From NCBI GenBank assembly GCA_900498135.1, contig LR026961.1:458874-522873 (forward strand): a stretch of 64,000 nt of DNA, written 5' to 3'. A model generated the notes under the pieces. That model was not told the DNA's origin and did no database searches. It saw nothing but the letters and a program-made list of their open reading frames with translations. Both the position numbers and the translations under genes were made by a program. This DNA is from an uncultured Desulfatiglans sp. (lineage in GTDB: Bacteria > Desulfobacterota > DSM-4660 > Desulfatiglandales > Desulfatiglandaceae). Positions 9,061 through 38,220 of the stretch are shown piece by piece. Position 1 is the first letter of the stretch, and every line of letters begins with the position of its first letter.

Positions 9061-9182
9061 CCCCTAATAAAAATATTATTGTTTGTTTCAGAAATTGCGG
9101 TAGTCACTCCAGACATTATTGGGCTCAATTCTATACATGCATAGCTTCTTAGTGCCCCCGGACGGTTTCTGTGTTAGACACA

Positions 9183-21442: not shown

Positions 21443-21578
21443 TCTCACAGGATCCCTCCCTAATGTGCCGGCACAGCTGCTGGCTTGTGCTTGTCCGCGA
21501 TTGTGGATGCACCTCATTGCACTTCTCGTTGATCCTGGCTAGTCAGATTATCTACTAGGCAGGTGATTGGGAGCTAGC

Positions 21579-21671
21579 GCCTGACGCTACGCATCACCGG
21601 CAGCAAACAGCAGAGCGACGAGGTACGAGGAGCGGCGCTTTTTGCTGTCCGAGTGCATGCGATTGTTATGC
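21579..21671 (-). other. attC recombination site of the SIR2-HerA cassette
   Basis: On the minus strand it begins GCATAAC, which contains the herA stop codon, and ends GTCAGGC (one change from GTTAGGC). Inner arms GGACAGCAAA and TTTGCTGCCGG pair, as do GCATGCACTC and GTGATGC. Stop codon overlap, boxes and fold all agree with a genuine cassette boundary. Confidence 0.75.
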
Positions 21672-23378: not shown

Positions 23379-23392
23379 ATTTGGTCTTCTCC

Positions 23393-24433
23393 TTAAGGTT
23401 CTATCAGTTGAGCCAGTGCACTGAATTTCCAAAGGCCTGTCCCTGTCCCTGTGTCTTTTTGATCAATGAAACAGTTCGCCGGAAAACCAGCGTGAAATGG
23501 TGGAAATTTTTTCAATTCATCGAGACAGTCAGGCTCTTCACCACACAACGCAGTCAGCCGAATCTTTCCGGCATTAAGTTTCGGGAAAATCAGCTGATCA
23601 TTGATGTGCTTGTCGCCAAAGCTGAATCCACAGGCTACTACAAACTGACAATTCGTGCCGAGTGTTCTAGAAGCCCGAGTGAATAGCCGATCAAATGGTT
23701 CTGAAAGAGTGTCCATGACTTTTCTTCGGCGTGGCAGAACAAGTGCTCTTTCTGGCGTGGCGCTCCGTAGGGCGAGACCGCTTTCAAAAACACGGCCTCC
23801 TTCCTTTAACCAAGAGACTGAACCATGAAGTTTGATGATGTTAACGTGAAGCTCACACCGGTGCGTGAATCTTGTATTTTCGACAGTTCCTCTTGCTAAA
23901 TCAAAAACGGTGGGATCGAACACCCGTCGAAGTGGCCCATCAAATCCTGTCTCAATGCGGATGCCGACCTCGCCGGCCGCTAATTCGAAAAGGACATCGT
24001 AGTTGGTTGTCAGGATTGTGACGGTTGAGGCGGTTCCATGCGCTCTCTTTTTTAATGCTTCGAGGAAGCGAACATGGTGGGAGAGGTCTGGAGTGGTGAT
24101 TGACAAGATCGCGTCAACAATCAGTTTGCGGATCTCAGACTCGAGATCTCCATACTTTGAGTCCTGCGTCGTGACGAAGTATTCAGTGACTAAATCGGAA
24201 AGGATCTCGATATTGGGAGTTCCTGCAACGGGGTCATAGATAAACGCCTTTGCGTCACATATTTCATCCAACGTTGCTTTTAGGGGCGGACGAAGATTCG
24301 AAACGACTGTCTTTGTGAGGTCGCCCATCAAAGGGTAACCCGCCTCCTTAGAAGTCCCGGCACCGAAGAGAAATCCAATCCGGTTTAGACCAGTTTCAAT
24401 TCCTGGGAATAGCTGCGAGAGGGTCAAGCTCAT
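23393..24433 (-). CDS. SIR2-domain NAD-consuming effector, partner of HerA
   Basis: 346 residues. SIR2 features in order: NAD loop GAGTSKEAGYP (24-34), TTNYD with the conserved asparagine (144), and KLHGS with the catalytic histidine (203), then ACGFSFGDKHINDQLI (about 286-301) as in the SIR2_2 group. Such proteins hydrolyse NAD in phage-defence complexes. The catalytic residues are present, so activity is expected. Good ribosome site GAGG before the start. It is translated just ahead of herA, consistent with the SIR2-HerA two-gene defence layout. Confidence 0.85.
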   Translation of the reverse strand: MSLTLSQLFPGIETGLNRIGFLFGAGTSKEAGYPLMGDLTKTVVSNLRPPLKATLDEICDAKAFIYDPVAGTPNIEILSDLVTEYFVTTQDSKYGDLESEIRKLIVDAILSITTPDLSHHVRFLEALKKRAHGTASTVTILTTNYDVLFELAAGEVGIRIETGFDGPLRRVFDPTVFDLARGTVENTRFTHRCELHVNIIKLHGSVSWLKEGGRVFESGLALRSATPERALVLPRRRKVMDTLSEPFDRLFTRASRTLGTNCQFVVACGFSFGDKHINDQLIFPKLNAGKIRLTALCGEEPDCLDELKKFPPFHAGFPANCFIDQKDTGTGTGLWKFSALAQLIEP

Positions 24434-24581: not shown

Positions 24582-25691
24582 TCATGATGCTTGCATTTCT
24601 GCCCAAAGCTCTCGGACATCTTTCGTCTTGAGCGACTTTGAATGAAACAATCTTTCTGCGTCGGCAGCCTCTTGTTCGTCAAAATAATAAAATGTAATTT
24701 CGGGAATATGGTCATTGTCGAGTATCTGAGCAAAAAGGTGTCCATCGTTGTTTGGGGACAATCCAACAATCTCCAAGGAACCTGTTATTTCCTTAAGCAA
24801 GTTGTGTGGATACTGCTCGCCGTGTTTGAGCTCTGGATGTTTTACTTTCAGTTTTATTGCTTCCTTCAGTCTCTTGACTAATTCATTATTGTCATCCCAT
24901 TCATCTATTTGTTTCCGAATTGAAGGATCGTTTTCATATGCGTCTGCAAATTTTTCCATGCCGGTATTCGCGAGAGATGCTTCAGTCATTGAGCTTAACT
25001 TCAGATCACCGACATAGGACATAAGGCAATTTGAATAAAGATACAGATACTTGGGATCAACCTTTTCACCATCTAGGAGATTATCTTTCAGTTGATTTCT
25101 AAAGCTGTTTGGATCATACGTTTCACTCAAAATGCGGAATGAGCCATGAAGATGAAGCACATCCTTATTGTACACTGCGTCCAAGTTACTATCGTAGTTT
25201 ATCGTAAATAATTGATCGTGTTCATTTAGCCATACTATGAATCGTGGTGGAAAGTACCTGTGAACATTCTCTATTTCCCCGCCACTGTAAATTGCATCAA
25301 GGAACATTCGCTTCAGTACACCGCGATTGTTAAAGCGATCTGGATTTCCAATTTTTTGCTTGCTATGAACAAGTTCAAATAGCAGAAAGTAGTCCTCAAA
25401 TCCAATCTCGTCAACGGAGTAAGAACGCGCAGGCGAGTATCGCCGTTTGAAGTCTTCCAGCGAGGAACGATCGTAGGATGTGTAAACATATTTATCGTAC
25501 TCGCCACGCAAAGCTCGTGCGTGCTCCCCCTGTAGAGCCACCACGAAATCGGCGCATTCCTTCGGATAGAGATGAGTAGGAAAACGCCCGCTGCGGATGT
25601 TTTCAAGAGCTCGATTCACAATACTGGAATTAAGATATGCCGCTCCACCGTACTGTATTATTACGCCATTTCCAATAAGTAGGTTTCGCAT
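24582..25691 (-). CDS. SIR2-like/AbiH-like domain protein, candidate defence gene
   Basis: 369 residues, not assignable to a named family from memory. The layout follows SIR2-type folds: an N-terminal nucleotide loop LLIGNGVIIQYGG, TINYDSNLD (163-171) where SIR2_2 proteins have TTNYD, LHLHGSF (179-185) in the position of the catalytic LHGS, and VGLSPNNDGHLF (about 311-322) like the late GxSxxD motif. The N-terminal loop GNG in place of GAG resembles AbiH-type abortive-infection proteins. It would bind NAD or a related nucleotide (inference). First cassette after attI in array 2, directly before SIR2-HerA. GGAG precedes the start. Confidence 0.6.
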   Translation of the reverse strand: MRNLLIGNGVIIQYGGAAYLNSSIVNRALENIRSGRFPTHLYPKECADFVVALQGEHARALRGEYDKYVYTSYDRSSLEDFKRRYSPARSYSVDEIGFEDYFLLFELVHSKQKIGNPDRFNNRGVLKRMFLDAIYSGGEIENVHRYFPPRFIVWLNEHDQLFTINYDSNLDAVYNKDVLHLHGSFRILSETYDPNSFRNQLKDNLLDGEKVDPKYLYLYSNCLMSYVGDLKLSSMTEASLANTGMEKFADAYENDPSIRKQIDEWDDNNELVKRLKEAIKLKVKHPELKHGEQYPHNLLKEITGSLEIVGLSPNNDGHLFAQILDNDHIPEITFYYFDEQEAADAERLFHSKSLKTKDVRELWAEMQAS

Positions 25692-25731: not shown

Positions 25732-26116
25732 AACTTTATATTCGACGTCTCAATTGAAGCCGCGAAAAACCTCGATTTGGCTGCCTATTGGTTTTAGGTG
25801 ACTGATGTGTCGTATAAACCGATCCTGAGGGGATCTACGCTTCAAATTTGACGCAATTGGATCTTGATATTCACAAATTATAGCTGCATATATAACTGTA
25901 AGTTTTTTGAGCGCGGCAAGATTTAGAGCATTGCCCCCACCTCGGATCGCCATTTCCCGATCGTTCCGCCTTTTCAAGTGCCCCCCCTTCCGCCCCGCCG
26001 CCAAGTTGATCCACTCGGGTACATACGAAGGGTGCCGGACGTCCGGCGCCAACTAAGGCCGCCCTACTGAAAGGCCCTTGTCGGAACCCGCGGGTAAACA
26101 TCCCGGGAGAAATGCC
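25732..26116. other. attI-side region of integron 2
   Basis: Nearly identical to 7728-8112. On the minus strand the shared sequence ends ...TATAAAGTT and continues ATCG here, against CGCT in copy 1, so the point of divergence lies exactly at a GTT as expected for attI. Only about 40 bases separate this point from the start codon of the first cassette gene. No coding frame inside it is credible. Confidence 0.7.
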
Positions 26117-27074
26117 ATGGAAAAGCCGAAACTTCTCGACCAGGTCCGGGCTGCGCTTCGTGTCCGGCACATGAGCTATCGCACCGAACAGACTTACGTC
26201 CATTGGATCAAGCGGTTCATTTTCTTCCATAACCGGAAGCACCCACTGGAAATGGGAGAAGCCCAGGTCAGAGCTTTCCTGAGCTATCTGGCTGTGGAAA
26301 AAAGGGTGGCAGCCTCCACCCAGAATCAGGCGTTCTGCGCCCTCCTGTTCCTTTACCGCAACGTGCTCAAGAAAAACCTCGGCTGGATCGACGACATCGA
26401 ACGGACCAAAAGCCCCCGCCGGCTTCCGGTCGTCTTCACACGGAACGAGGTTAGGGCCATTCTCGCCCGCCTCGACGGAGTCCTTTGGATCATGGCGGCC
26501 CTTCTCTATGGGTCCTGGGTTGCGGTTGATGGAATGCCTCCGACTTAGGGTCAAAGACGTCGACTTCACCTATGGCTAGATCACCGTCCGGGACGGTAAG
26601 GGGCAGAAGGACCGGGTCACCATGCTCCCGGAGCCGGTTGGGAAGCCCCTTCAGCGGCACCTCGAAAAGGTGCGGCTCATCCACGGGACTGACCTCGATA
26701 ACGGTTTTGGAAGGGTCAATCTCCCCTTCGCACTGGCCAGGAAATACCCCAACGCCCCGCGCGAGTGGGGCTGGCAGTATGTGTTTCCAGCCTCCAAACT
26801 GTGCAGAGACCCCAGGACATCCGCTGTCACACGCCATCATCTGCATGAATCTGGCCTGCAGCGCGCTGTCAAAACGGCGATCCGGGAGGCCGGTATCGTT
26901 AAATACGGAAGCCGCCATACGTTCAGGCACAGTTTCGCCACCCACCTGCTCGAAAATGGCTACGCTATTCGAACGGTCCAGGAACTGCTGGGTCACAGAG
27001 ATGTCAGCACAACGATGATCTGTACGCATGTACTCGACAAAGGAGGGAAAGCGGTCAAAAGCCCGTTGGATTGA
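26117..27074 (+). pseudogene. intI: integron integrase, full length but inactivated (copy 2)
   Basis: Starting MEKPKLLDQVRAALRVRHMS it can be followed to the C-terminus, including the IntI-specific insertion [20 protein letters not shown] and box [18 protein letters not shown]...ELLGHRDV. It is broken three ways: a frameshift near 26510 just before the first catalytic arginine (LRLMECLRLRVKD), an in-frame TAG at about 26575, and replacement of the catalytic tyrosine by cysteine (TTMICTHVL where the family has IYTHVL). It cannot catalyse recombination, so array 2 is frozen unless another integrase acts in trans. Confidence 0.9.
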
Positions 27075-27546: not shown

Positions 27547-27894
27547 TCAAGTAACTGGTTCGCAGTTGGGCGATGCATCATGATCATGGAGCATTTCTTG
27601 GGGAAATGGCTTTACCTTTTTCCATTCTTGCGATTCTGTTTCCGCTTGCCAAAGGTCAAAATTTTTCTGCAAGTTAAGCCAAAAGTCCGGAGTGGTATGA
27701 AAGGCACGTGACAAGCGCAAGGCCATCTCCGGTGTGACGGCACCTCTTTCATTTATAATTTTAGATAATGTTTTTCTCGAAACTCCGAGCGATTCAGCCA
27801 TATCCTTGATTGTGATGGATAGAGGCAAGAGATAGTCTTCTTTTATTATGCTGCCCGGATGTGTTGGACATCTCGTCATTCTACGCATTGGCAT
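27547..27894 (-). CDS. higA: HigA-family antitoxin (XRE helix-turn-helix)
   Basis: 115 residues. The opening RCPTHPGSIIKEDYLLPL is the HigA family signature, followed by a helix-turn-helix (KDMAESLGVSRKTLSKIINE) and the conserved HTTPDFWLNLQKNFDLWQAE tail. It neutralises and, with the toxin, represses its own promoter. The ribosome site GAGGG lies between the toxin stop and this start, a clear Shine-Dalgarno in contrast to the toxin gene. Could start two codons later at the second ATG. Confidence 0.9.
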   Translation of the reverse strand: MPMRRMTRCPTHPGSIIKEDYLLPLSITIKDMAESLGVSRKTLSKIINERGAVTPEMALRLSRAFHTTPDFWLNLQKNFDLWQAETESQEWKKVKPFPQEMLHDHDASPNCEPVT

Positions 27895-27899
27895 ACCCT

Positions 27900-28178
27900 C
27901 TAATGGTAATCATCGTAATCTACAACATATGCATCACTATCGATAAATTGAAAAAAAACTCGCCAATTGCCTGATACTTTCACTGCATAAAATCCTTTTT
28001 TATCGCCGCTCAACTGGTGAAGGAATGAGCCAGGGTAATTCATATCCTTAATCTCCCTTGCAGCATTGAGGCGATCGAGGATTCGTTCAGGCCTGTTTGC
28101 ATGTTCAGGCTCAATTCCTTTCTTGACCCCTGTATAAAAAAACTCTTCAAAATTTTCATGTTTAAACGATTTTATCAT
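27900..28178 (-). CDS. higB: HigB-family toxin (RelE superfamily)
   Basis: 92 residues from MIKSFKHENFEEFFYTG. The pattern RPERILDRLNAAREIKDMNYPG...FLHQLSGDKKGFYAVKVSGNWRVFFQF is that of HigB ribosome-dependent mRNA interferases, and the acidic tail YVVDYDDYH is usual. This start is chosen because the family begins here and the predicted transcription start falls one base upstream, so the mRNA would have no leader and no ribosome site. Order toxin-then-antitoxin is normal for higBA. Confidence 0.9.
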   Translation of the reverse strand: MIKSFKHENFEEFFYTGVKKGIEPEHANRPERILDRLNAAREIKDMNYPGSFLHQLSGDKKGFYAVKVSGNWRVFFQFIDSDAYVVDYDDYH

Positions 28179-28185
28179 TGCGTGC

Positions 28186-28214
28186 AATGTAACCTGCAAG
28201 GTTACGCCTCTCAA
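28186..28214 (-). promoter_or_regulatory. promoter and perfect palindromic operator of higBA (first copy)
   Basis: On the minus strand: TTGAGA, 17-base spacer, TACATT. The spacer and -10 contain the perfect palindrome GTAACCTGCAAGGTTAC (28189-28205), a likely HigA operator. Transcription would start about seven bases past the -10, at or next to the higB ATG. Confidence 0.8.
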
Positions 28215-28257: not shown

Positions 28258-30810
28258 TCAGACGCTTGGGCTGCCGTTCCCGTTCTTATCGATGTTCCGG
28301 TCCAGGGCGTAAATCGCCGGGGGATAGGCGTCGCCCTTTTCGTAGTGGGAGAGAACCCCCTTCAGGAGGCTGAAGAGCTCTTCGAAGACCCCGTCGATCA
28401 CCTCCCCCGGGACGCCGTAGTAGAGAAAATTGATGGGCATGGAATCGCCCAGGAGATAGAGGTGCTTGGCGGGGGCGGCCTCTGACGCTGAGGGGGTTTC
28501 GCCGTCCAGGAAGGTGATTTGCACGTGGTGGCCCTGGAGGACACGGTTCTGGGGGTCCTTGATCGGGTATTTCTCGACGCGCACCGGCCGCCCGTCGATG
28601 GCGGGACGATCCGCGTTCGAGCATTCCTCGATCAGGGCGAGGAGGTCCGTGAACTCGATCGTCTTCGTGGAGCCGCTGGCGAAGAAGAGGTCCCGGGCCG
28701 TCCCCTCGGCGATCAGACGTTCGAAGAAGGGCTTTTTCAATACCGAGACGCCGGTGACGCCCAGGAACAGATCCGTCTGCTTCCAGAGGCCCTCCGGAAG
28801 CGCGGCGGCGTCGGAAAACTCGGAGAAGGTCTCTTCCCGGGCGGTCTGCACCTTCAGGTCCAGTCCGCACACGGACCCGTAGGTGACGCGCTCCTTCAGG
28901 GTCCGGAAGAGGAACCGGCCGATGTTCCCCCTCGAGCCGAGGACGAGGGCGTTTCGGTGCATCATGCACTTTCCGAGGCCGTTGAAGATGGACTCGACCG
29001 CGCTGAGGATGGAGTGGGCGCAGGCCTCCGCCTCGACGATGTTCTTGTATCGCGATGAGGCGATCGTAAAGGCCGGGAGGGCAAGGCCGCCGCACTCGGC
29101 CTCCGTTTCCTGCAGCTGGTAGTAGCCGTTGGCCGTGTGTTCGAAGGTCGCGGGGACGATCGATTTCAGCCAGGCGTCGAGCGGAAGGAAATCAGGGAGG
29201 TCCTCGGGCGCCTCCACCGCATAGGCTTCGAGCGCGGTGGAGGCGGCAAGCCCGGCGCGGCAGAGTCGGTTCAGGACCGGGGCGACGTATCCGCCGTCTT
29301 CGATCAGGAGGAGTTTGCGGCCCTCCTTCCGGGCCGCCACGGCCTCCCGGAAAAAGAGATGGCCGGCCGCAAGGCGCATGGATTCGAGATAGCCTCCGCG
29401 CAGCGTCCGAAGGGCCTGATCGAGCCGTGCCAGCCGATCGAGCGGGGAATACTGCCGGGAGAGGATGTAGGCCCCCGCGACCGAGTCGCGAAGCTCGACC
29501 CGCTGCAGGGCATGGAAGGAAAACCGGCGGTCGGGGAGGCTCAGGATGTCCTCCAGATAATAGTCCGGGACCACCCCTTGATAGTTAATGAAGAGGGTCG
29601 TCACCGATGCGCACTGCGAGGCCTCCAGCGCCCTCACGAAGCCGAGCACCTCCGAGGTGGTGTGGTGAATCAGGAGGATGCGGTAATCCTGGAGCAAATC
29701 GGGGCGGGCGGCCTCCTGGCAGGCGAGGAGGTGCGGCATCCGCAGGAGGTGGGCGTGCATGTCCGGCCGTTTGCGCCGGGCCCCGATGGCGATGTTGAGC
29801 CGCGCCCCCTTCCGGGAGAGATCGATGTAGACATGATCCCGGGCATCGAGCATCTCGATGCAGTGGCCGTCCGACAGGGTCTGCATGACGACATCGTCTT
29901 CGAGCAGCACCAGGACCTTGCACAGAAGCTGGACGAAGGTCGCGCCGCCCGAAAGGAGAAGGCTTTCGGCCGTCTCCTGGCTCCAGCTGAAAGCCGCGTC
30001 CCGGACGGCCGCGAGTCCGGAGGCGATCAGCAACTCGAACAGGGCGGCCTGGCGGCCGGGGATCTCGATGTACTCGTGCTGCTGGTTCTGGCACTCGTGG
30101 TGGATCCCCACAAAGATCTGTTCGGCCATCGCGGCGATGTCCAGGCTGTAGTGCCTTCGGCCGATGTCCGTGACCACCCGGTGGGGGATCCGTTTCAGGA
30201 ACAGGCGCGACTGGGCGCCGTCCTCGACGGTGATGCGCAGAAAACGGCCCTCCCGGTCGTGCTCCACCAGCATGAAATGCCTTTGGCCGGCTTCCTTCGA
30301 GACATGAAAGGGGAAGAGGACTGCGGCCTCGGCTTCCTCCTTTTTTTGGAAGGCGCGCGGGAAGAGCAATCCGCCCCACTGCGGGAGCTGGACGGCGTCG
30401 AAGACGAGCCGGAGATCCCGGACGAACCCCTCCTGGTCCTGGAGGAGATACCCGGCAACGGGGCGGCGGGCATAGACGACGACATGGGTGACGCCGAGGG
30501 CGGCCAGCTCGGCCGTGGTCCCCGGATCGACGATGACCTGGACGAGGACGTCCACCGAGGAATTCCGGGACTGTTCGAGGACCTGCCTGGCCAGGAGGCT
30601 GACGAAGCCCGGGAGCCCGGAAAAGACCCTCACGGCACTCATGTCGATCAGGAATCCGCCGTCGTCCTGCTCGATCAGCGGCACCCCGAAGGACGTCCCC
30701 CGGGGGCCGTGCCGGAGATCGCGCCCTGCCACCGCCTTGCCGAAGCGGGGCGTTCGCATGAGGTTGCTCAGAATCGAATCGATCCGCCGCGTGTCTTTCT
30801 CGTCAGCCAA
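28258..30810 (-). CDS. 850-residue protein with a Rossmann-like C-terminal domain, unknown function
   Basis: No named family is recognised. The C-terminal third looks like an NAD-binding Rossmann unit of the S-adenosylhomocysteinase type: KLLLIEDGGYVAPVLNRL near residue 500, then ALVLGSRGNIGRFLFRTL near 645, followed by DLFLGVTGVSVL and LFFASGSTKTIEF, the steps seen in dehydrogenase-like folds. The N-terminal half lacks recognisable motifs. No signal peptide or membrane segment. It is the last gene of a tight operon after a HAMP membrane protein (15-base gap) and a MinD-like ATPase, which suggests a membrane-associated complex (inference). A small piece of it survives in the relic at 36.0 kb. 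Confidence 0.7.
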   Translation of the reverse strand: MADEKDTRRIDSILSNLMRTPRFGKAVAGRDLRHGPRGTSFGVPLIEQDDGGFLIDMSAVRVFSGLPGFVSLLARQVLEQSRNSSVDVLVQVIVDPGTTAELAALGVTHVVVYARRPVAGYLLQDQEGFVRDLRLVFDAVQLPQWGGLLFPRAFQKKEEAEAAVLFPFHVSKEAGQRHFMLVEHDREGRFLRITVEDGAQSRLFLKRIPHRVVTDIGRRHYSLDIAAMAEQIFVGIHHECQNQQHEYIEIPGRQAALFELLIASGLAAVRDAAFSWSQETAESLLLSGGATFVQLLCKVLVLLEDDVVMQTLSDGHCIEMLDARDHVYIDLSRKGARLNIAIGARRKRPDMHAHLLRMPHLLACQEAARPDLLQDYRILLIHHTTSEVLGFVRALEASQCASVTTLFINYQGVVPDYYLEDILSLPDRRFSFHALQRVELRDSVAGAYILSRQYSPLDRLARLDQALRTLRGGYLESMRLAAGHLFFREAVAARKEGRKLLLIEDGGYVAPVLNRLCRAGLAASTALEAYAVEAPEDLPDFLPLDAWLKSIVPATFEHTANGYYQLQETEAECGGLALPAFTIASSRYKNIVEAEACAHSILSAVESIFNGLGKCMMHRNALVLGSRGNIGRFLFRTLKERVTYGSVCGLDLKVQTAREETFSEFSDAAALPEGLWKQTDLFLGVTGVSVLKKPFFERLIAEGTARDLFFASGSTKTIEFTDLLALIEECSNADRPAIDGRPVRVEKYPIKDPQNRVLQGHHVQITFLDGETPSASEAAPAKHLYLLGDSMPINFLYYGVPGEVIDGVFEELFSLLKGVLSHYEKGDAYPPAIYALDRNIDKNGNGSPSV

Positions 30811-30825
30811 GAGGTCCCTCTCCTC

Positions 30826-31881
30826 TCATCGCTCCGCCGCTCCGGCCTTCTGCCGCAGGTTCCCGGCCTTCGCCTTGAGCATCTTGAAGTAGTCCGATCC
30901 GGTGATCTTCTCGAGATCGGCGCACTGCTTGCCCCGATCGATCTGGATCTTCAGGGTGGTCACCTCGTTGCGCAGATCCTTCTCGCGCTTTTCGACGGCC
31001 TGCAGCATGTCCGTGAAGACCTGGGCCATGGTCCCCAGTTCGTCCTGCCGGCTCGAGATGCTTTTCAGCTCCTCGACATGGGTGTAGTCCCCGTCGGCGA
31101 CCCGCCGGGCGACGCGGGTCAGGCCCAGCATGGGGGCCGTAATCTTCTTGGACAGGACGGCGCAGACCGCCAGCCCCGTGATCAGCACGACCAGCGTGAC
31201 CGCCCCGAGGCCGTAAAGCTCCTCGACCGCGATCCGCTCGCGCATGGTGATGAAGATGCTGCTCAGCCAGGTCGCCATGACCGTGACGATCAGGAGGTAG
31301 TAAACGGCCTGGATCGTGCGTATCTCGACGCGGGCGATCAGGAGGCCGAAGAGCTGCATCAGGGGCGGCACCAGCATGAAAGCCCAGAGGGTGTCGGTGA
31401 TGAAGATCGGCAGGAAGAGGCTGAAGAGCGCGTTATGGAACGCGACGCGCCCGAGTCCGACCTCGACCCCCGTGGACAGGGCGAAGGGCAGGGCCGAAGC
31501 CAGCAGGAGGAGAAGCAGCAGCTTGACGAAGGACAGGATGGAATCGACCGGCCTCGCGCCGAACCGGCCGGCCAGTCCGGGGATGAGCCCCATCAGGCCG
31601 TTGGCGAAGCTCCAGTGCAGGGCGAAGAGCGGGCCCTTGCCCGCGAAGGCGTAGCCGAGCATGTCCCCCGACGCCCCCGTGGCGAAGCCGGCCAGCGGGC
31701 CGTACAGGACCCCGATGAACATGGGCAGAGCGACCTGCGGACGCAGCTCCGCAAAGCTGCAGCCCGGCAGATAGTATTTTCCGGACAGGAAGTTCGCGAG
31801 CCCGTAAACGCACCCCATCGCCACGCAGACAGCGGCGATCCTCAAGCTCGAACGGGGCGGGCGCGGACGGATGGAAGCCAT
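30826..31881 (-). CDS. membrane protein with ECF-S-like N-terminus, HAMP domain and coiled coil
   Basis: 351 residues. The first ~210 hold about six hydrophobic helices. The segment RPQVALPMFIGVLYGPLAGF resembles substrate-binding (S) components of ECF vitamin transporters. A seventh helix leads into a HAMP-like linker (KKITAPMLGLTRVARRVADG, about residues 230-285) and a charged coiled coil ending EKITGSDYFKMLKAKAG. No kinase or methyl-accepting region follows. It may sense a small molecule at the membrane and pass a signal to its operon partners (inference). It is five bases from the MinD-like gene. Confidence 0.75.
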   Translation of the reverse strand: MASIRPRPPRSSLRIAAVCVAMGCVYGLANFLSGKYYLPGCSFAELRPQVALPMFIGVLYGPLAGFATGASGDMLGYAFAGKGPLFALHWSFANGLMGLIPGLAGRFGARPVDSILSFVKLLLLLLLASALPFALSTGVEVGLGRVAFHNALFSLFLPIFITDTLWAFMLVPPLMQLFGLLIARVEIRTIQAVYYLLIVTVMATWLSSIFITMRERIAVEELYGLGAVTLVVLITGLAVCAVLSKKITAPMLGLTRVARRVADGDYTHVEELKSISSRQDELGTMAQVFTDMLQAVEKREKDLRNEVTTLKIQIDRGKQCADLEKITGSDYFKMLKAKAGNLRQKAGAAER

Positions 31882-31885
31882 GGGG

Positions 31886-32641
31886 TCAACCTGAAAGGGC
31901 GTCCGCCATGCGGTTGAACTCGGCGACGACGGGGTGCTCCGGATAGCGGACGACGAAGATCCCCTGGCTGGCGAGGGTCATCATCTCATCCGAGTGCATG
32001 ATGACCCCAGCGACCGGGCAGTTGTAGGTCCGCTCGACCGTGGACCGGATCTGCCCGGCATCGAAGCTTGCCGGCACCTTGTTGATCACGAGCAACATCT
32101 TCGGGACCTCCAGTTCGCGCGCCACCTCCACGGTCAGCGCGGTCCCCTGGTAGTCCTGATAATCCGGACGCATGACGACCAGCAGGGCGCTCGAGACGGC
32201 GATGGAAAGCAGGGTCTCCTCGTTCAGGCCGGGGTGGGTGTCGATGATCAGGACGTCCAGTTCGAGCCCATCGATGAGGGCCCTGAACCCGTCGCTCAGG
32301 AGGTTGATGTCGTAGCCGTCGTGAAGGACGCGGGCGATGTCGGCGACGTTGACGCTCGAAGGGATCAAATAGACGGCCCCCTTGCAGCGCCCTTCGAGGG
32401 AGGCACTCACGTCGCAGGCCGTCTGCTCGATGGAACACCGCCCCCACAGATAGTCGTTCAGGGAGTATGCGATCTCTTCCTCGCCGAGGCCGAAGATGAC
32501 ATGGATGCCGGGCGATTGGATGTCCGTGTCGATCACCCCGACCCTCGCCCCGCGCATGGCATAGACGGCCGCCAGGTTGGCCGAGATGTTCGACTTCCCT
32601 GTTCCGCCTCTGAATGAATGCACCGATATGATCCTGGCCAT
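31886..32641 (-). CDS. MinD/ParA-type ATPase
   Basis: 251 residues. The deviant Walker A motif FRGGTGKSNISANLA (near residue 11) has the signature lysine pattern of the ParA/MinD family, with GVIDTDIQSPG as switch I and VLIIDTHPGL as the Walker B. This family forms ATP-dependent dimers, often membrane- or DNA-bound, that position or load partners. It is the first gene of the operon, whose next member is a HAMP membrane protein. A C-terminal membrane-targeting helix of the MinD kind was not evident, so recruitment by the partner is more likely. Confidence 0.85.
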   Translation of the reverse strand: MARIISVHSFRGGTGKSNISANLAAVYAMRGARVGVIDTDIQSPGIHVIFGLGEEEIAYSLNDYLWGRCSIEQTACDVSASLEGRCKGAVYLIPSSVNVADIARVLHDGYDINLLSDGFRALIDGLELDVLIIDTHPGLNEETLLSIAVSSALLVVMRPDYQDYQGTALTVEVARELEVPKMLLVINKVPASFDAGQIRSTVERTYNCPVAGVIMHSDEMMTLASQGIFVVRYPEHPVVAEFNRMADALSG

Positions 32642-33020: not shown

Positions 33021-33350
33021 TCAGTACGCAAACATCGATTGCAGCGTCAAAATGACTTCCACCTGAACTTGAGGGTCAATTGTACCAGCTTCCTTTATGA
33101 GCCTGGACTTGTCAATTGTGCGAATCCGGTCCAATACGATTTGACCCTTTCGGCCTTGAAATTCGCAAAACACGCGAGTGGGATAAGCCTTACCGGCTGT
33201 GGTCATAGGTGCCACGATAACAGTTCGTATGTGACGGTTCATCTCGTCAGGTGAAATGACCAGGCAGGGACGAGTTTTCTTTATTTCCGATCCCACTGTA
33301 GGATCGAGGTTGATCAAGTAGACATCAAAACGTCTGACTACCATTGCCAT
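33021..33350 (-). CDS. mazF: MazF/PemK-type toxin (endoribonuclease)
   Basis: 109 residues, the normal size. The opening RRFDVYLINLDPTVGSEIKKTRPCLVISPDEMN is the MazF signature, with the conserved arginine in TRP and the later VIVAPMTTAGKAYPTRV strand, ending LDRIRTIDKSRLIK. It cuts mRNA at short sequences. The gene overlaps mazE by 13 bases. An attC-like site lies upstream of the promoter at 33.7 kb, so the pair fits a cassette, but no attC was seen at its 3' end. Confidence 0.95.
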   Translation of the reverse strand: MAMVVRRFDVYLINLDPTVGSEIKKTRPCLVISPDEMNRHIRTVIVAPMTTAGKAYPTRVFCEFQGRKGQIVLDRIRTIDKSRLIKEAGTIDPQVQVEVILTLQSMFAY

Positions 33351-33592
33351 TCTGTCTCATCCCAAGAATGCGATACCGGTTCCTCGGCATCGACCAGCAG
33401 GTCGTCACCATTTTTGGCCATTTGTTGAAATGCCTGATCCCAACCGGCGCGGGGTGTCGAAATGGGGCGAATAATGATTTTTTCGCCCTCTACAGCAATT
33501 TCGACATCCTCGGCTATACCGGCTTGTTCGATAATCGGCTTTGGCAGCCGAATTCCCTTTGAATTACCGATCTTTACAATACGTGCCCTCAT
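33338..33592 (-). CDS. mazE: MazE-type antitoxin (AbrB fold)
   Basis: 84 residues from MRARIVKIGNSKGIRLPKPI, the standard SpoVT/AbrB DNA-binding start. A longer upstream frame exists but lacks a ribosome site, while AAGGAGAT precedes this ATG. The acidic tail (DAEEPVSHSWDETEWQW) is the MazF-binding part. Repressor of its own promoter. Confidence 0.9.
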   Translation of the reverse strand: MRARIVKIGNSKGIRLPKPIIEQAGIAEDVEIAVEGEKIIIRPISTPRAGWDQAFQQMAKNGDDLLVDAEEPVSHSWDETEWQW

Positions 33593-33622
33593 GAAATATC
33601 TCCTTGAAACATCTGTATGCAC

Positions 33623-33651
33623 ATTGTAATTACCGGAGCGGCCTCTGTCAA
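33623..33651 (-). promoter_or_regulatory. promoter of mazEF
   Basis: On the minus strand: TTGACA, 17-base spacer, TACAAT, followed about 20 bases later by the AAGGAGAT ribosome site of mazE. No strong palindrome was noticed over the -10. Confidence 0.7.
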
Positions 33652-33694
33652 GAAAAACTTGGGAATCGTGAGAGTTATACCCTGATCCGCTTTC

Positions 33695-33762
33695 TGCCAA
33701 CGGCAAGCTCAGCCGAGCAGGCCGCACCGAGGCCTGACGCCGGCTGGAGCGAAGTGTTATCC
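33695..33762 (-). other. attC recombination site upstream of mazEF
   Basis: On the minus strand it begins GGATAAC and ends GTTGGCA. Inner arms GCTC-AGCCG-AGGCC and GGCCT-CGGCT-GAGC pair nearly fully with an eight-base loop and unpaired bases between helices. It would be the attC of a cassette to the right, now replaced by the + strand hicAB module. Confidence 0.7.
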
Positions 33763-33773
33763 GCTGACTTTTT

Positions 33774-33808
33774 TTGACACAGCCTATCATAATGTGTATA
33801 AATACACA
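33774..33808 (+). promoter_or_regulatory. promoter and palindromic operator of hicAB (first copy)
   Basis: TTGACA, 17-base spacer, TATAAA. The perfect palindrome TGTGTATAAATACACA (33793-33808) covers the -10 and is the probable HicB operator. The expected transcription start is two or three bases before the first hicA codon. Confidence 0.75.
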
Positions 33809-33810
33809 TC

Positions 33811-33999
33811 ATAAATAGCCGTACAATTATCAAGATTCTCAAACAAAACGGCTGGAGCGAAGTGGCAAAAGTCTGCTCCCATTCTCAATTTCGGCACCCA
33901 TACAAAAATGGACGGGTTACCGTACCACACCCCAAAAAGGACATGCCGATTGGTACTGTAAAAAGCATCGAGCGCCAATCGGGAATCAAGTTTAGCTGA
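33811..33999 (+). CDS. hicA: HicA-type toxin, with ATA in place of the start codon
   Basis: 62 codons reading NSRTIIKILKQNGWSEVA..., SHSQFRHPYKNGRVTVPHPKKDMPIGTVKSIERQSGIKFS. The family motifs are all visible: the catalytic histidine lies in HSQF (usually SHHQF), and the double-stranded-RNA-binding fold is complete. The codon where the family has ATG is ATA, with an in-frame stop just upstream and no other start, and there is no ribosome site. Either it is translated poorly as a leaderless mRNA or it has been silenced by a start mutation. hicB follows in the usual order. Confidence 0.75.
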   Translation: MNSRTIIKILKQNGWSEVAKVCSHSQFRHPYKNGRVTVPHPKKDMPIGTVKSIERQSGIKFS

Positions 34000-34008
34000 G
34001 GTGTAACC

Positions 34009-34425
34009 ATGGCAAACTACATCGCAATCGTACACAAAGATCCCAAAAGTGACTTTGGCATCTCGTTTCCCGATTTTCCGGGCTGCATCACGGCCGGGAA
34101 AGACATCGACGAAGCTAAGGACATGGCCCAAGAGGCTCTCACCCTCCATATTCAAGGCATGATTGAAGATGGAGAAAAATTGCCCGCCCCATCAAAGCTC
34201 GAAGAGATTATGGCCGATCCCGATTTCGCCGATGCTATGGCCTATCTGGTCGTTGACGTCCCGGATGCCAGGCCCCGAACGGTCAGGGTCAATATTACCG
34301 TTCCCGAAATGACTCTTAAACAAATTGATGCTGCAGCTAGAAAGCGCGGTATGTCACGATCTTCATTTCTTGTTCACGCCGCACAGAATGCTATTCAAGC
34401 AAACCAATCAGAGGCATCTGTTTGA
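34009..34425 (+). CDS. hicB: HicB-type antitoxin
   Basis: 138 residues. The N-terminal MANYIAIVHKDPKSDFGISF and DFPGCITAGKDIDEAKDMAQEAL are the degenerate RNase-H-like HicB domain, and the C-terminal NITVPEMTLKQIDAAARKRGMSRSSFL is a ribbon-helix-helix DNA-binding part. It blocks HicA and represses the operator upstream. A strong GAGGTG ribosome site lies in the end of hicA. Confidence 0.9.
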   Translation: MANYIAIVHKDPKSDFGISFPDFPGCITAGKDIDEAKDMAQEALTLHIQGMIEDGEKLPAPSKLEEIMADPDFADAMAYLVVDVPDARPRTVRVNITVPEMTLKQIDAAARKRGMSRSSFLVHAAQNAIQANQSEASV

Positions 34426-34434
34426 TTCAATTAC

Positions 34435-34606
34435 TTTCCATCCGGAAATGACCTTTTTGACCAATCTCGGCGTCAATCTGCACGTTTGCTTGTGCGGCGA
34501 CCACCAGGTCGTCTCCGCGCAAACGCTTGATTTCCTTGATATTGGCCAAACCGGGACCCGCCGCGAAGCGGTGGGACTGAGCGGCGAAGCGCTGAAGAAA
34601 AATCCT
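34435..34606. repeat. dispersed palindromic repeat, copy A
   Basis: Begins TTTCCATCCGGAAATG, then the core with inner palindrome (CACGTTTGC ... CGCAAACG around GCGACC/GGTCG), then a tail shared with copy C (AAACCGGGACC, GGTGGGACTG). Its right end stops before the second inverted arm seen in copies B and C. It replaces the missing 3' part of a methyltransferase gene. Confidence 0.7.
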
Positions 34607-34891
34607 TGAGATCACGTGCTGCATCAGGGGGAAGCCGGCGCCAAACAGAAGGATTTGGTCGAATCGCTCAGTCAATGCCCTCCGGAATGCTGCATCGACA
34701 TACTTCGTTCGGGCGATAACATACTCATAAACCCCCTTGGGCGCAAGGAAACGGACAAAGAACTTTCTACATAAAGAAGTGTGAATGAGCACCCTGATAA
34801 AGCTTGGGAGAAGACACACGGCAAGATAGTCGTCGCCGTGATAATGGTCTTCTTTTTCCAGAAATGAAGCCGCGCGTGAAAGGCAAGTCAT
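34607..34891 (-). pseudogene. class I SAM methyltransferase (LCMT/PPM-like), N-terminal fragment
   Basis: The minus frame reads CLSRAASFLEKEDHYHGDDY, FIRVLIHTSLCRKFFVRFLAPKG, then VYEYVIARTKYVDAAFRRAL and FDQILLFGAGF, the N-terminal and motif I region of the leucine-carboxyl-methyltransferase-like family (PPM/TIGR00027 type). It ends immediately after motif I, where repeat copy A begins, so only the first ~95 residues remain and the SAM pocket is incomplete. No start with a ribosome site is obvious. Confidence 0.65.
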
Positions 34892-34983
34892 TTGAGCGGT
34901 TCGTGATGTTTTTCTCTCGATTCGTTTATCGATCACTTTCGTTTGCCTCACCGGAGCGACTTGCCAATTTCGCCAGTCGATTG

Positions 34984-35043
34984 ACCCAAAGCCCGAATCA
35001 AGCCGCGCCGCCAAGCGGCGTCGGCTTAAATGAGTTGTTTATG
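34984..35043 (-). other. attC-like relic closely resembling resistance-cassette sites
   Basis: On the minus strand: TAAACAACTCATTTAAGCCG, ACGCCGCTTGGCGGCGCGGC, then TTGATTCGGGC. The central GCCGACGCCGCTT(G)GCGGCGCGGCTT with flanking bases strongly resembles the attC of aadA-type cassettes. The outer R boxes are worn (GTTTATG and TTTGGGT). It has no intact gene on its 5' side now. Confidence 0.65.
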
Positions 35044-35064
35044 TGCCTGTTCCGATCAAACCCC

Positions 35065-35115
35065 TTGACATTTTGGTCAAAATGGTCAAAATGGTCATAA
35101 TGGTCAAAAGAGGAG
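35065..35115 (+). promoter_or_regulatory. promoter/operator with four tandem 9-bp repeats upstream of phd-vapC
   Basis: TTGACA (35065-35070) is followed by four head-to-tail copies of TGGTCAAAA (35074-35109, the third as TGGTCATAA), then the ribosome site AGAGGAG. Tandem operators of this spacing fit cooperative binding of a Phd/VapC complex. Confidence 0.6.
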
Positions 35116-35122
35116 ATTGATA

Positions 35123-35404
35123 ATGGAAAAAAACATATCCGTGGGTGAAGCAAAGGCCACCTTTTCAGAATGCATCCGTAAAGTTGAAGCAGGTTATGCT
35201 GTGCTCATTACCAGGCATGGCAAACCTGTCGCCGCTCTGGTTAGCCCCACTGACCTCGAACATCTAAAGCGTTTGAGAAAAGCAGGGCCAGAGAGTGGCC
35301 TTGCCAGTATTGCTGGCGGCTGGGAAAATAGCGAAGAATTGGCTTCAATTTTGAACGCATCTCCTCGACAGGGACAACGAAATACCCCTGACCTGGAAAA
35401 TTGA
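35123..35404 (+). CDS. Phd/YefM-type antitoxin
   Basis: 93 residues from MEKNISVGEAKATFSECIRK, preceded by AGAGGAG. The N-terminal VGEAKATFSECIRKVEAGYAVLITRHGKPVAAL is the Phd/YefM DNA-binding fold. The C-terminal part is the toxin-binding tail. Its last codons overlap the PIN toxin start by four bases. It should repress the repeat-bearing promoter just upstream. Confidence 0.85.
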   Translation: MEKNISVGEAKATFSECIRKVEAGYAVLITRHGKPVAALVSPTDLEHLKRLRKAGPESGLASIAGGWENSEELASILNASPRQGQRNTPDLEN

Positions 35405-35829
35405 AAATGGCGTTTCTCTTTGACACCGATGCAATTTCAGAACTCCTGCGCCCACGCCCCGCAATAGCCTATGTGAAGTGGATCATGAAAGTTCCTCGTG
35501 AAGAGCAATTTACCAGTGCTGTTGTAATAGGCGAACTGTACAAAGGCGCCTACCGCTCCCAACACCGTGAACGACACCTAACCAATATAGAACAACGGGT
35601 TCTCCCCGCTGTCAGCGTTCTACCTTACGACACAAGCATTGCGAAAGTTTTTGGTAAAATCCGAGCTTACCTTGAAGAAATGGGAACAATCCTTCCCGAT
35701 GCGGATATTCAGATTGCAGCCACGGCTATAAGCCATAATTTGGAGCTTATAACCGGAAACCTTCGTCATTTTAGTAGGATTACCGATTTGAAGGTTAATA
35801 ATATCCTCGCAGATTCACGGAATCAATGA
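35401..35829 (+). CDS. vapC: VapC-type PIN-domain toxin
   Basis: 142 residues. Catalytic acidic residues of the PIN fold are visible: FDTDAISELL near the start, GELYKGAY in the middle, and ILPDADIQIAATAI with LITGNLRHFSRI at the end. PIN toxins cut tRNA or rRNA. The module is on the + strand, unlike most TA modules here, and has no attC beside it. Confidence 0.9.
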   Translation: MKMAFLFDTDAISELLRPRPAIAYVKWIMKVPREEQFTSAVVIGELYKGAYRSQHRERHLTNIEQRVLPAVSVLPYDTSIAKVFGKIRAYLEEMGTILPDADIQIAATAISHNLELITGNLRHFSRITDLKVNNILADSRNQ

Positions 35830-36019
35830 TTTCTGGCCTCTTCTCCGACATAACACCGGGCATCAGGGGCACGACAACCACGCGGGCAAGGGATTTCAAC
35901 GCAACACCACCGGACTGCCCCCGCACAATTTCGTGTCTCCTGGATGCCTTTGTCATGCGGATTTCTTCGACCTAAGGAGGTACGCTGAAGTCTCCCCTCC
36001 TCACGGCGCGACAAGGTTC

Positions 36020-36340
36020 TCCCCCTCGGCGATCAGACGTTCGAAGAAGGGCTTTTTCAAGACCGAGACGCCGAGGGCGGCCAGCTCGGGGATGAGCTCC
36101 ATCAAGCCGTTGGCGAAGCTCCAGTGCAGGGCGAAGAGCGGACCCTTGCCCGCGAAGGCGTAGCCGAGCATGTCCCCCGACGCCCCCGTGGCGAAGCCGG
36201 CCAGCGGGCCGCACAGGACCCCGATGAACATAGGCAGAGCGACCTGCGGCCGCAGCTCCGCAAAGCTGCAGCCCGGCAGATAGTATTTTCCGGACAGGAA
36301 GTTCGCGATCCCGTAAACGCACCCCATCGCCACTCAGACA
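36020..36340 (-). pseudogene. internally deleted second copy of the MinD/HAMP/850-residue operon
   Basis: On the minus strand the frame starts AMGCVYGIANFLSGKYYLPG and matches the N-terminus of the HAMP membrane protein for ~85 codons, then passes into ELAALGV of the 850-residue protein, then into VSVLKKPFFERLIAEG further along the same protein. These three parts keep the order they have in the intact operon (31.8, 30.5 and 28.7 kb), with the DNA between them lost. It is therefore a copy shrunk by deletions. The MinD gene is missing except for its upstream flank. Confidence 0.8.
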
Positions 36341-36354
36341 GCGGCGCCACGTCA

Positions 36355-36475
36355 ATTAAGATGGCACCGGCGGAGCTGGATGTCATCGAAGAGACCTGCG
36401 GGTATGTCCGGGAGGAGGGCGGGCTGGAGCGGGAGGTCTCCGAGGGGGCGCGGGCGCCGAACGTCAAGTTGGCCT
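36355..36475 (+). pseudogene. fragment of the RecQ-like helicase gene
   Basis: Reads LDVIEETCGYVREEGGLERE then VSEGARAPNV, matching about codon 464 onwards of the helicase at 42.95 kb and even more closely the fragment at 32.8 kb, including its non-homologous upstream bases (ATGGCACCGGCGGAGCTGGA). It lies divergently beside the shrunken operon copy, as the other does beside the intact one. Confidence 0.75.
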
Positions 36476-36504
36476 GCCGGGGCCTAGCAGCAAAGCAGCA
36501 CCGG

Positions 36505-36855
36505 TCAGTTTCCAACGCCATGTTCGGCGCTTGAGCTATTTGCTTTAAGACCGCCAAGGGGCAACGGCTTAATATTCTCCAGGGCGTCGAACTCAGATTT
36601 CTTAGCGAAATAAAGATCCCATCTCAGCTGAACATTCATCCAGAAGTCTTCTGACACACCAAAAACCTTTGCAAGCCTTAAGGCCGTACTTGGAGTAATT
36701 CCACGCCGCCCGTTGATAATTTCATTGATGCGTTGATAAGGTACTTTTATCGCATTGGCTAAATCTCGCTGAGTTATGCCCATAGGCTTCAAAAACTCTT
36801 CCAACAGCATCTCGCCAGGATGGGTTGGTGCCCTATGAGTAGGTATCCGTATCAT
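36505..36855 (-). CDS. higA: HigA-family antitoxin (second copy)
   Basis: 116 residues. RAPTHPGEMLLEEFLKPMGI is the family opening, RDLANAIKVPYQRINEIING the helix-turn-helix and EDFWMNVQLRWDLYFAKK the conserved tail. The start has the strong ribosome site GAGGAG, in contrast to its toxin partner upstream. Not closely similar to the first higA, so the two modules are independent. Confidence 0.9.
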   Translation of the reverse strand: MIRIPTHRAPTHPGEMLLEEFLKPMGITQRDLANAIKVPYQRINEIINGRRGITPSTALRLAKVFGVSEDFWMNVQLRWDLYFAKKSEFDALENIKPLPLGGLKANSSSAEHGVGN

Positions 36856-36879
36856 TGCAGCTCCTCATGGTTGTATTTA

Positions 36880-37173
36880 TTAATGATAATCCGCTATTTC
36901 AACATCCATGGGCCCGGCTTCGGTCCAAGTGAAACAAATGCGATATTGATCGTTTATGCGGATGCTGTATCGTCCGTTTCTGTCACCCGACAGCGCCTCC
37001 AATCGATTTCCGGGCGGAACACGCAATTCATCAAGAGTCAGGACAGAATCAAGCCTATCAAGCTTTCTAAACGCGATCGCCCAGAGGCTTTGCGGACAAA
37101 TTTTCCTCGCAGCTTTGGTTGACCGCCCGTTGAAAATCTCCTCCGTCGCTTTGTTTTTGAAGGATTGTATCAT
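36880..37173 (-). CDS. higB: HigB-family toxin (second copy)
   Basis: 97 residues: IQSFKNKATEEIFNGRSTKA at the start, RKLDRLDSVLTLDELRVPPGN in the middle and GRYSIRINDQYRICFTW with the VEIADYH tail, all typical of the HigB group with the catalytic histidine at the end. The start codon coincides with the predicted transcription start, so translation would be leaderless. A 25-base gap precedes higA. Confidence 0.9.
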   Translation of the reverse strand: MIQSFKNKATEEIFNGRSTKAARKICPQSLWAIAFRKLDRLDSVLTLDELRVPPGNRLEALSGDRNGRYSIRINDQYRICFTWTEAGPMDVEIADYH

Positions 37174-37179
37174 GGAATG

Positions 37180-37208
37180 ACAATAGCACGGCTATCATGC
37201 TAATTCAA
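37180..37208 (-). promoter_or_regulatory. promoter and operator of higBA (second copy)
   Basis: On the minus strand: TTGAAT, 17-base spacer, TATTGT. The interrupted repeat TAGCA-N9-TGCTA lies over the spacer and -10. The start of transcription would fall on the higB ATG. Confidence 0.7.
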
Positions 37209-37239
37209 GTCATATCCTCCTGCTAAATTAAGCATACAT

Positions 37240-37430
37240 TCGGAGGCCAACCACCTGACATGAGTACCAGCGAAGCCCCCGCCTCTCCTCCGCTGCGATC
37301 GGCCTCGAAATTTATTCCGGAGAGGACCGCATCCTCTAAATCGGCGCCGGCGCCGCCGACGGGACGCGCACCTTCGCCCGCAGAGGCGAAGGCGGCCTCG
37401 AAAGGGCGGCGGCGGAGTTGGATGTCAGTG
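37240..37430 (+). pseudogene. 5' fragment of the RecQ-like helicase gene with its leader
   Basis: The bases around the start, CCACCTGACATGAG, and the following ~50 codons align with 42.93-43.11 kb (GTSGEAPA.. against MSISVPP.., and the shared GACGGGACGCGCACCTT and GAAAGGGCG segments), but with many changes that destroy the frame. It is the degenerate start of a second copy of the exonuclease domain, breaking off near 37430. Confidence 0.65.
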
Positions 37431-37541
37431 AATCGAATTTTTCCCTATTCATTACTGCAAGAGTTTCGTCGTGATTGAGTGCTCGGATTTCAATTTTGTT
37501 CTTCATGGCCTGCCTCTTTGTCATGCTATGCCGAATGAATC

Positions 37542-37605
37542 GCATAACCTGTGCAGCAACTACGATTGGCAAAACCGCCGGCTTCAATCCGCTTGAGGTT
37601 GATGC
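37542..37605 (-). other. candidate attC site overlapping the HigA-like antitoxin 3' end
   Basis: On the minus strand it runs from GCATCAAC to GTTATGC. The outermost bases GCAT(C)AACCT pair with the other end and a GATTG/CAATC inner helix is possible. It overlaps the last seven codons of the antitoxin, so it is only a candidate. Confidence 0.4.
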
Positions 37606-37922
37606 AAGCGTTCGGCCTTTGAATCTTCAGCAACAGGTTCAGCATGAATTCTCAATCCTAGCGCTCCTATTACTTTGAGGATCGTGTCAAAGGTCGGGGT
37701 CCGTTCCCCGGAAAGCGCCTTGTACAGGCTTTCACGAGATAGGCCAGCATCCTTCGCCACCTGAGACATACCTTTGGCGCGGGCGACATCCCCCAAAGCC
37801 TTGGCGATGAAAGCAGCATCACCGTTGGCCTCCTCAAAACAAGCTTCCAGGTATGCTGCCGTTTCCTCAGGTGTACGGAGGTGCTCGGCAACATCGTAGC
37901 GTGTGGTCTTTGTCTTTGGCAT
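37584..37922 (-). CDS. HigA-like antitoxin (addiction-module XRE type)
   Basis: 112 residues from MPKTKTTRYDVAEHLRTPEE, with TAGGAG before it. YLEACFEEANGDAAFIAKAL and DVARAKGMSQVAKDAGLSRE, then SLYKALSGERTPTFDTILKV, are the signature of the addiction-module antidote family that pairs with RelE-like toxins. It appears intact although its toxin is frameshifted, so the module may survive only as a repressor or as an antidote to related toxins. Confidence 0.85.
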   Translation of the reverse strand: MPKTKTTRYDVAEHLRTPEETAAYLEACFEEANGDAAFIAKALGDVARAKGMSQVAKDAGLSRESLYKALSGERTPTFDTILKVIGALGLRIHAEPVAEDSKAERLHQPQAD

Positions 37923-37930
37923 AATAGCTC

Positions 37931-38220
37931 CTATAGATTGCGAGCGAGTCGCAAGGCAGTCTCGATGTCGCCGGCTTGGGTGCGCTTGTCTCCGCCAGCA
38001 AGCAAGATGACCAATGCTTGACCCCTGTGCGTGTAGTACACACGGTAGCCAGGTCCGTGATCGATCTGCAGCTTTGAGACTCCTTCGCCAACCGGCCTCA
38101 CGTCCCCCGGATTCCCCGTCGTCAGACGCTCGATCCGCACCTGAATGCGAGCCCGGCCCCGGAGATCTCGGAAGCCATCGGGCCACTTAGCAAAGGTCTC
38201 GGTTTGGCGATTTCGATCAT
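37931..38220 (-). pseudogene. RelE-like toxin, frameshifted near its start
   Basis: Reading from the expected ATG gives MIEIAKPRP, whereas removal of one frame step gives (R)QTETFAKWPDGFRDLRGRAR and IQVRIERLTTGNPGDVRPVG, then the normal family ending with GEGVSKLQIDHGPGYRVYYTHRGQ and ALRLARNL. One C is missing about ten bases into the gene, so the protein cannot be made from the ATG. The antitoxin just downstream is intact. This is a toxin inactivated by a single deletion. Confidence 0.8.

Follow-up and report, generated by a model that had tools for sequence, protein, structure and literature searches.

What might a MinD-type ATPase, a membrane protein that joins an ECF-S domain to a HAMP domain and an 850-residue protein accomplish together in one operon? 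The question is raised by a 64,000-nucleotide stretch of DNA from an uncultured Desulfatiglans sp. (GenBank assembly GCA_900498135.1, contig LR026961.1, positions 458,874 to 522,873; hereafter the window, whose own numbering is used unless the contig is named). A first annotation made from the letters and their open reading frames (ORFs), here called the sequence-only reading, described an unfamiliar three-gene operon and proposed a membrane-located signalling or surface-positioning complex. Taken as a whole, the operon is in our judgement best explained, with confidence about evenly balanced for and against, as a kinase-less membrane signalling unit in which the large product, a member of the adenosylhomocysteinase (SAHH) superfamily, would act on a nucleoside-like substrate other than S-adenosylhomocysteine (SAH).

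Organization and conservation of the operon

Three successive ORFs occupy positions 28258-32641 of the minus strand, on which all operon features given below lie, and were found intact where first reported. Gene 1 (31886..32641, 251 amino acids) encodes a MinD/ParA-superfamily ATPase of the RGGTGK[ST] clade, identified by its AAA_31 Pfam match and its match to 1hyq. Gene 2 (30826..31881, 351 amino acids) encodes a receptor-like membrane protein in which Pfam matches and hydropathy delineate an ECF-S domain, further transmembrane segments, a HAMP domain and a C-terminal tail. Gene 3 (28258..30810, 850 amino acids), whose TTG start is preceded by AGAGGAG, encodes a new N-terminal domain joined to an SAHH-superfamily domain. 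The 15-bp gap between genes 2 and 3 agreed with the earlier figure, while that between genes 1 and 2 measured 4 bp rather than 5. Relative to a genome of the same genus, the three genes differed by synonymous and non-synonymous changes in ratios of 11:5, 9:4 and 37:18; they look to be under purifying selection, and the predominance of synonymous differences indicates that the operon genes are being maintained.

The order MinD–membrane protein–SAHH-like was kept in 14 genomes from five families of the phylum, which bears out the suspected conserved three-gene unit. These were the genome of the window (G000) and others of its family (G001, G010, G021), together with G334, G150, G306, G523, G575, G578, G580, G583, G586 and G477; G334 is a 'Deltaproteobacteria' metagenome-assembled genome, also DAOVTG010000154.1, with the MinD gene split by a contig end. 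A gene for a zinc-binding medium-chain dehydrogenase (MDR, zinc alcohol dehydrogenase) separates the membrane gene from the SAHH-like gene in nine of the 14, and a Cupin_5 gene, lipoprotein-like at the start of its translation, follows the operon in three (G010, G021, G334). The G000 genome has a Cupin_5 lipoprotein-like gene of its own (L092, contig 436276-436869) on the same strand, 50 kb from the operon and outside the window; a defence and mobile region separates the two.

Searches of 297 genomes of the phylum for the MinD subfamily, for the membrane protein and for its tail returned the same seven genomes each time, all with the SAHH-like gene (the membrane-protein count leaves out two further matches covering the HAMP region only). 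In the phylum samples, neither the MinD nor the membrane family was found outside the operon. Scattering of the three genes over genomes, which the sequence-only reading had named as counter-evidence, was therefore not what we saw: MinD and membrane protein occurred only with the large protein. The gene 2 family is retained in every operon genome, and no copies of the large protein were present among 72,556 plasmids.

The large protein ends in an SAHH-superfamily domain

The gene 3 product itself matched no Pfam or NCBIfam family, PF05221 included. Homologues were gathered from whole genomes and GTDB contigs, and comparison of a gene 3 profile with the PDB revealed a faint, collinear similarity to adenosylhomocysteinases. 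An AlphaFold model using 11 homologues reached a mean predicted local distance difference test (pLDDT) score of 82 and superseded an earlier model from 7 sequences (pLDDT 61). Residues 346-845 (28276..29775) were recognised as an SAHH-like two-domain unit by three methods. VIA-align superimposed the model on 3x2f with a Z score of 28.4 over 363 of 406 residues (root-mean-square deviation 3.2), its list for the model spanning residues 333-843 only. Foldseek matched the model to SAHH structures (E 1.4e-14), and hhalign aligned the profile with canonical SAHHs from the same genomes over nearly full length (E 2.9e-4), whereas five column-shuffled control profiles gave short alignments with E 0.2-0.75. 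The SAHH family of Pfam (AdoHcyase, PF05221) was matched by three of the 11 homologues (best E 3.5e-6). From the fold of the model, the hhalign score above that of the shuffled controls and the Pfam matches of the homologues, we assign the C-terminal ~500 residues to the SAHH superfamily. Since a canonical SAHH is encoded elsewhere in all 11 genomes tested, the gene 3 product is an extra protein.

Compared with SAHH/AHCY (PF05221), the gene 3 product shares the whole two-domain fold, six residue equivalents and a conserved acidic residue, D651, that follows the second strand of the NAD fold. It differs in having a canonical SAHH alongside it, a new N-terminal domain of ~345 residues, and GxxGxIG in place of GxGxxG; the dinucleotide-binding loop reads GSRGNIG (residues 625-631, 28918..28938), with G625, G628 and G631 conserved. 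The N-terminal domain (residues 35-345, 29776..30708), defined by invariant residues in the homologue alignment, had no PDB relative detectable by sequence. Its origin as a duplicated SAHH half was considered and rejected, as hhalign gave E values of 0.22 and 0.38, similar to the shuffled controls. The NAD-type C-terminus noticed in the sequence-only reading thus held up, though not as a lone NAD-binding unit: it is part of an SAHH-superfamily region preceded by a new domain.

Most catalytic residues are kept in an altered pocket

Residues were mapped by hhalign against canonical SAHH and by a conservation table of the 11 homologues, with the roles of SAHH active-site residues taken from PMC4647836. 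H383, T385, E387, D505, T559 and K589, the equivalents of SAHH His55, Thr57, Glu59, Asp131, Thr157 and Lys186, are invariant in homologues only ~30% identical. Among them H383, D505, T559 and K589 correspond to the SAHH residues for 3'-oxidation and 5' acid-base chemistry, all of which are kept. With these residues in place, it looks possible for the protein to recognise adenine and to carry out 3'-oxidation and 5' acid-base chemistry.

Several observations weigh against an enzyme at the output of a signalling unit. The 2'-OH residues are changed, Glu156 to an invariant His558 and Asp190 to Glu593. The homocysteine gate Gly300-His301-Phe302 is replaced by GST (713-715), Ser taking the place of His301, in all homologues that reach this region. 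The C-terminal Lys426/Tyr430 tail, which clamps the NAD of the next subunit, is absent; the SAHH alignment stops at residue 377 of the 406-residue chain, and the gene 3 protein ends five residues on. Given these losses in pocket, gate and tail, the gene 3 product may be inactive. Furthermore, the operon in the window has no adjoining dehydrogenase or cupin gene, and an SAHH-like gene occurs without MinD and receptor in G124, G159 and G174; the SAHH-like protein can work without these partners. Contact among the three proteins, the ligand, and the ATPase and enzyme activities are all predictions from sequence. G174 carries a distant MDR dehydrogenase gene upstream of its SAHH-like gene, and the SAHH-like/dehydrogenase pair may be older than the tie to the receptor; in G085 the contig ends at the SAHH-like gene and does not show its upstream side.

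The altered 2' pocket, together with the missing homocysteine gate, suggests that the gene 3 substrate is probably nucleoside-like and other than SAH, as neither the 2' pocket nor the homocysteine exit looks like that of SAHH in the aligned residues. The protein may have a different nucleoside-like substrate, or it may be a regulatory binder of NAD or a nucleoside similar to AHCYL1/IRBIT. The latter possibility, a regulator without catalytic activity that senses NAD(H) or a nucleoside and by which the operon would inform a membrane partner of the redox or methylation state, fares best among the alternatives, and we consider it unlikely without being far-fetched. The long N-terminal addition, the loss of His301 and of the NAD-clamping C-terminal tail, the change of Glu156 to His and the presence of canonical SAHH in the same genomes would all suit such a regulator, and a precedent exists in AHCYL1/2, paralogues of SAHH that have an N-terminal extension, are inactive and regulate membrane proteins (PMC12955632). 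The gene 3 product shares with AHCYL1/IRBIT and AHCYL2 an N-terminally extended SAHH domain, its standing as a paralogue of the canonical enzyme and a possible regulatory tie to membrane proteins, but it has another N-terminus, operon partners unlike theirs and most of the catalytic residues. A dead enzyme need not keep the equivalents of His55, Asp131, Thr157 and Lys186 invariant at ~30% identity, and the dehydrogenase gene that adjoins in nine operons, with the distant one in G174, also weighs against this reading.

A receptor-like protein without a kinase

The ECF-S domain of the gene 2 product (riboflavin-type S component, residues 17-175, 31357..31833) matched PF07155 with E 2.3e-8 and 34.6 bits against a cut-off of 26.7; the homologue L107 scored 44 bits. 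The HAMP domain (residues 243-297, 30991..31155) matched PF00672 with E 1.6e-8 and 35.1 bits against a cut-off of 25. These two assignments and that of gene 1 to MinD/ParA, all made in the sequence-only reading, were above the Pfam cut-offs. The protein ends in a coiled-coil tail, IDRxKQxxDLEKITxSDYFKxLKxKAxxLR (30844..31014), delineated by the alignment of gene 2 relatives and proposed as the MinD-partner motif. No kinase or ATPase output domain was present in the gene 2 product, which stops after HAMP and tail, in accordance with the sensor-like protein lacking a kinase that had been described.

There is a published precedent for S-component folds serving as receptors ('transceptors' and 5TMR sensor kinases; PMC11109136, the text of which does not mention HAMP or MinD). 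Gene 2 shares with these an S-component-type membrane domain as the sensing part and a cytoplasmic output. It differs in matching PF07155 rather than PF07694, in carrying HAMP and tail rather than a kinase or cyclase, and in having a MinD partner.

The ECF-S match could also denote a solitary S-component transporter for nucleoside- or vitamin-like cargo, which the SAHH-like enzyme, the dehydrogenase and an exported cupin would process, MinD acting only as an organiser. The dehydrogenase and cupin neighbours would suit such an uptake and salvage pathway, which we nevertheless regard as improbable. The HAMP domain and conserved tail are signalling parts, and next to the same MinD clade they are also joined to sensors that are not transporters (Cache, CHASE2). 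The operon lacks genes for ECF-T and EcfA, and the only recurring neighbours in the operon surroundings were the MinD, MDR, SAHH-like and cupin genes.

The MinD clade and the receptor tail occur together in other phyla

The gene 1 product scored 62 bits against AAA_31 of Pfam (cut-off 27) and was likewise above cut-off for ParA and CbiA; its nearest solved chain was archaeal MinD-1 (1hyq, E 1e-17). Identity among operon relatives was 55-98%. The deviant Walker A motif FRGGTGKS (32591..32614), F-R-G-G-T-G-K of which is invariant in the alignment of operon relatives, has Arg where the signature Lys usually stands. The protein thus shares fold and deviant Walker A with the MinD/ParA/FlhG ATPases but differs in its RGGTGK for KGGxGK, in its HAMP-receptor partner and in falling far below the equivalog cut-offs; the MinD equivalog (cell division) gave 59.4 bits where 212.9 are required.

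The same MinD clade, at 40-60% identity, was found on 13 of the 72,556 plasmid records, with hosts in Nostoc, Kovacikia, Pseudanabaena, Deinococcus, Rhizobium and Streptomyces. At five of nine plasmid loci examined, a tail of the gene 2 type, EIxxTDYFxxLKxKAxxLR, ends a protein encoded near MinD (the sample is small and partly related); this association was seen in Cyanobacteria, Deinococcus and Rhizobium. The sensor parts of the tail proteins were dCache-HAMP, Nif11-dCache-HAMP, HAMP alone, or short. When all plasmids were scanned with the tail only, five records were returned, each of them one of the 13 that carry the MinD clade; one match was a CHASE2 protein located 21 kb from MinD. The proposed receptor-MinD module (a HAMP receptor with a DYFxxLKxKA-type tail near an RGGTGK MinD) was present in all operon genomes. 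As judged from these sequences, the tail goes with the RGGTGK MinD clade and the sensor is exchangeable (ECF-S, dCache, CHASE2).

The rest of the plasmid loci consisted of SpoIIE/STAS/GlgX/AGE or Nif11/NHLP peptide genes and not of SAHH-like genes. Loci of MinD/ParA beside SpoIIE/STAS/GlgX or NHLP/Nif11 clusters (Cyanobacteria, Deinococcus, Streptomyces) therefore share with the operon the MinD clade at the identity given above and, at several of the loci, a HAMP receptor that ends in the gene 2 tail, but have neither the ECF-S sensor nor the SAHH-like protein. One Nostoc locus (L078, 3385-5979) encodes, between the genes for a Cache-HAMP-tail receptor and MinD, an 864-residue protein without Pfam match that has the size of the SAHH-like protein yet is unrelated to it by profile. 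In Deinococcus the gene for the tail-bearing protein is directly followed by a second MinD-like gene (L079, 8389-9156), which is divergent and has the motif MRGTGKS.

Signalling fits the operon better than does the surface positioning offered beside it in the sequence-only reading, since HAMP receptors of several kinds are found with this MinD clade in other phyla. MinD-type proteins commonly position things, and a Min- or Par-like division or partition system that places some structure, with the SAHH-like protein as cargo adaptor, would suit both this role and the MinD/ParA fold of gene 1. We judge it very improbable: the equivalog score is low (59 versus 213 bits), the partner is a receptor of variable sensor and not MinC, MinE or ParB, and the distribution is rare and patchy.

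A proposed signalling route

For the kinase-less signalling unit that we favour, the following sequence of events is conceivable. A small extracellular ligand would bind the ECF-S part and change the HAMP coiled coil, upon which the gene 2 tail would recruit or release the MinD ATPase. The ATP-dependent MinD dimer would then bring the 850-residue protein to the membrane or switch it, and this protein would probably oxidise, or eliminate from, a non-SAH nucleoside-like substrate, probably acting together with the adjoining zinc alcohol dehydrogenase in the nine genomes that have it. More tentatively, and with the balance of probability tilted against it, we suggest a kind of kinase-less signalling that extends across phyla, in which the tails of receptors with exchangeable sensors control a dedicated MinD ATPase, the output here being a new NAD-dependent SAHH branch acting on a nucleoside-like molecule.

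That no known pathway matches the operon was also our experience: no MinD/HAMP/SpoIIE or MinD/ECF/SAHH system was found in the open-access literature, which is weak evidence of absence. The building blocks are all of known kinds; undescribed in that literature are the way they are combined, the pairing of receptor tail with MinD and the divergent SAHH branch.

Operon remnants and the surrounding island

The second, shrunken copy reported in the sequence-only reading lies at 36022..36451 on the minus strand. By blastn it is a mosaic deleted remnant of ~430 bp, 92-95% identical to the operon and composed of four operon-region pieces (upstream region and fragments of genes 2 and 3) that overlap by 6 and 16 bp where they meet; the MinD gene has been lost. 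It attests past duplication and decay, not a second working system. Similar debris occurs elsewhere in G000 and in G001, as decayed bits of the SAHH-like gene 3' end or of the membrane gene (L037, L038, L009, L062); the junction in L038 is without the HigBA region present in the window. A tyrosine recombinase (integron-integrase-like) is split over two frames at 26078-27074 of the window; the sequence at 7798-8426, next to another ORF of recombinase size (8074-9144), repeats its 5' part (25802-26430) at 95% identity. Related recombinase copies flank operon debris in G001.

Small toxin-antitoxin-like pairs (HigBA-, MazEF-, HicB- and VapC-like, judged from their translations alone) lie at 27547-28214 and 33021-38186. 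PADLOC identified a type I restriction system (11901-19783), a SIR2-HerA pair (21666-24433) and a reverse transcriptase (RT)-protease-like match (20195-21517). Directly upstream of the SIR2 gene, 24582-25691 encodes a 369-residue protein without Pfam or PADLOC match, and 42952-48087 holds an open frame of 1711 codons with long overlapping frames on the opposite strand.

That the operon is mobile anti-phage or toxin-antitoxin-type cargo, as its neighbourhood of type I restriction-modification, SIR2-HerA and many small toxin-antitoxin-like genes and its decayed copies near recombinase genes might suggest, is hardly credible and was rejected, since PADLOC returned nothing for genes 2 and 3 and generic ATPase matches only for gene 1, and in relatives the operon lies among genes for cytochrome bd oxidase, short-chain dehydrogenases/reductases (SDR) and thiamine diphosphate (ThDP) enzymes. 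Phage origin was likewise rejected, as gene 3 matched no PHROG and genes 1-2 gave just HAMP-region and ParA-type matches.

Implications

To our knowledge, bacterial transmembrane receptors act through kinases, cyclases, phosphatases, chemotaxis domains or transcription factors. The pairing of a HAMP receptor with a dedicated MinD-type ATPase, if true, would be an additional route of receptor output, for which the conserved gene 2 tail supplies a testable interaction motif. The SAHH family is, as far as we know, otherwise almost single-function. If our assignment is true, the SAHH-like protein would represent a prokaryotic branch of this family with its chemistry apparently kept and its substrate pocket altered, and would offer a bacterial counterpart with which the AHCYL proteins, themselves poorly understood, could be compared.

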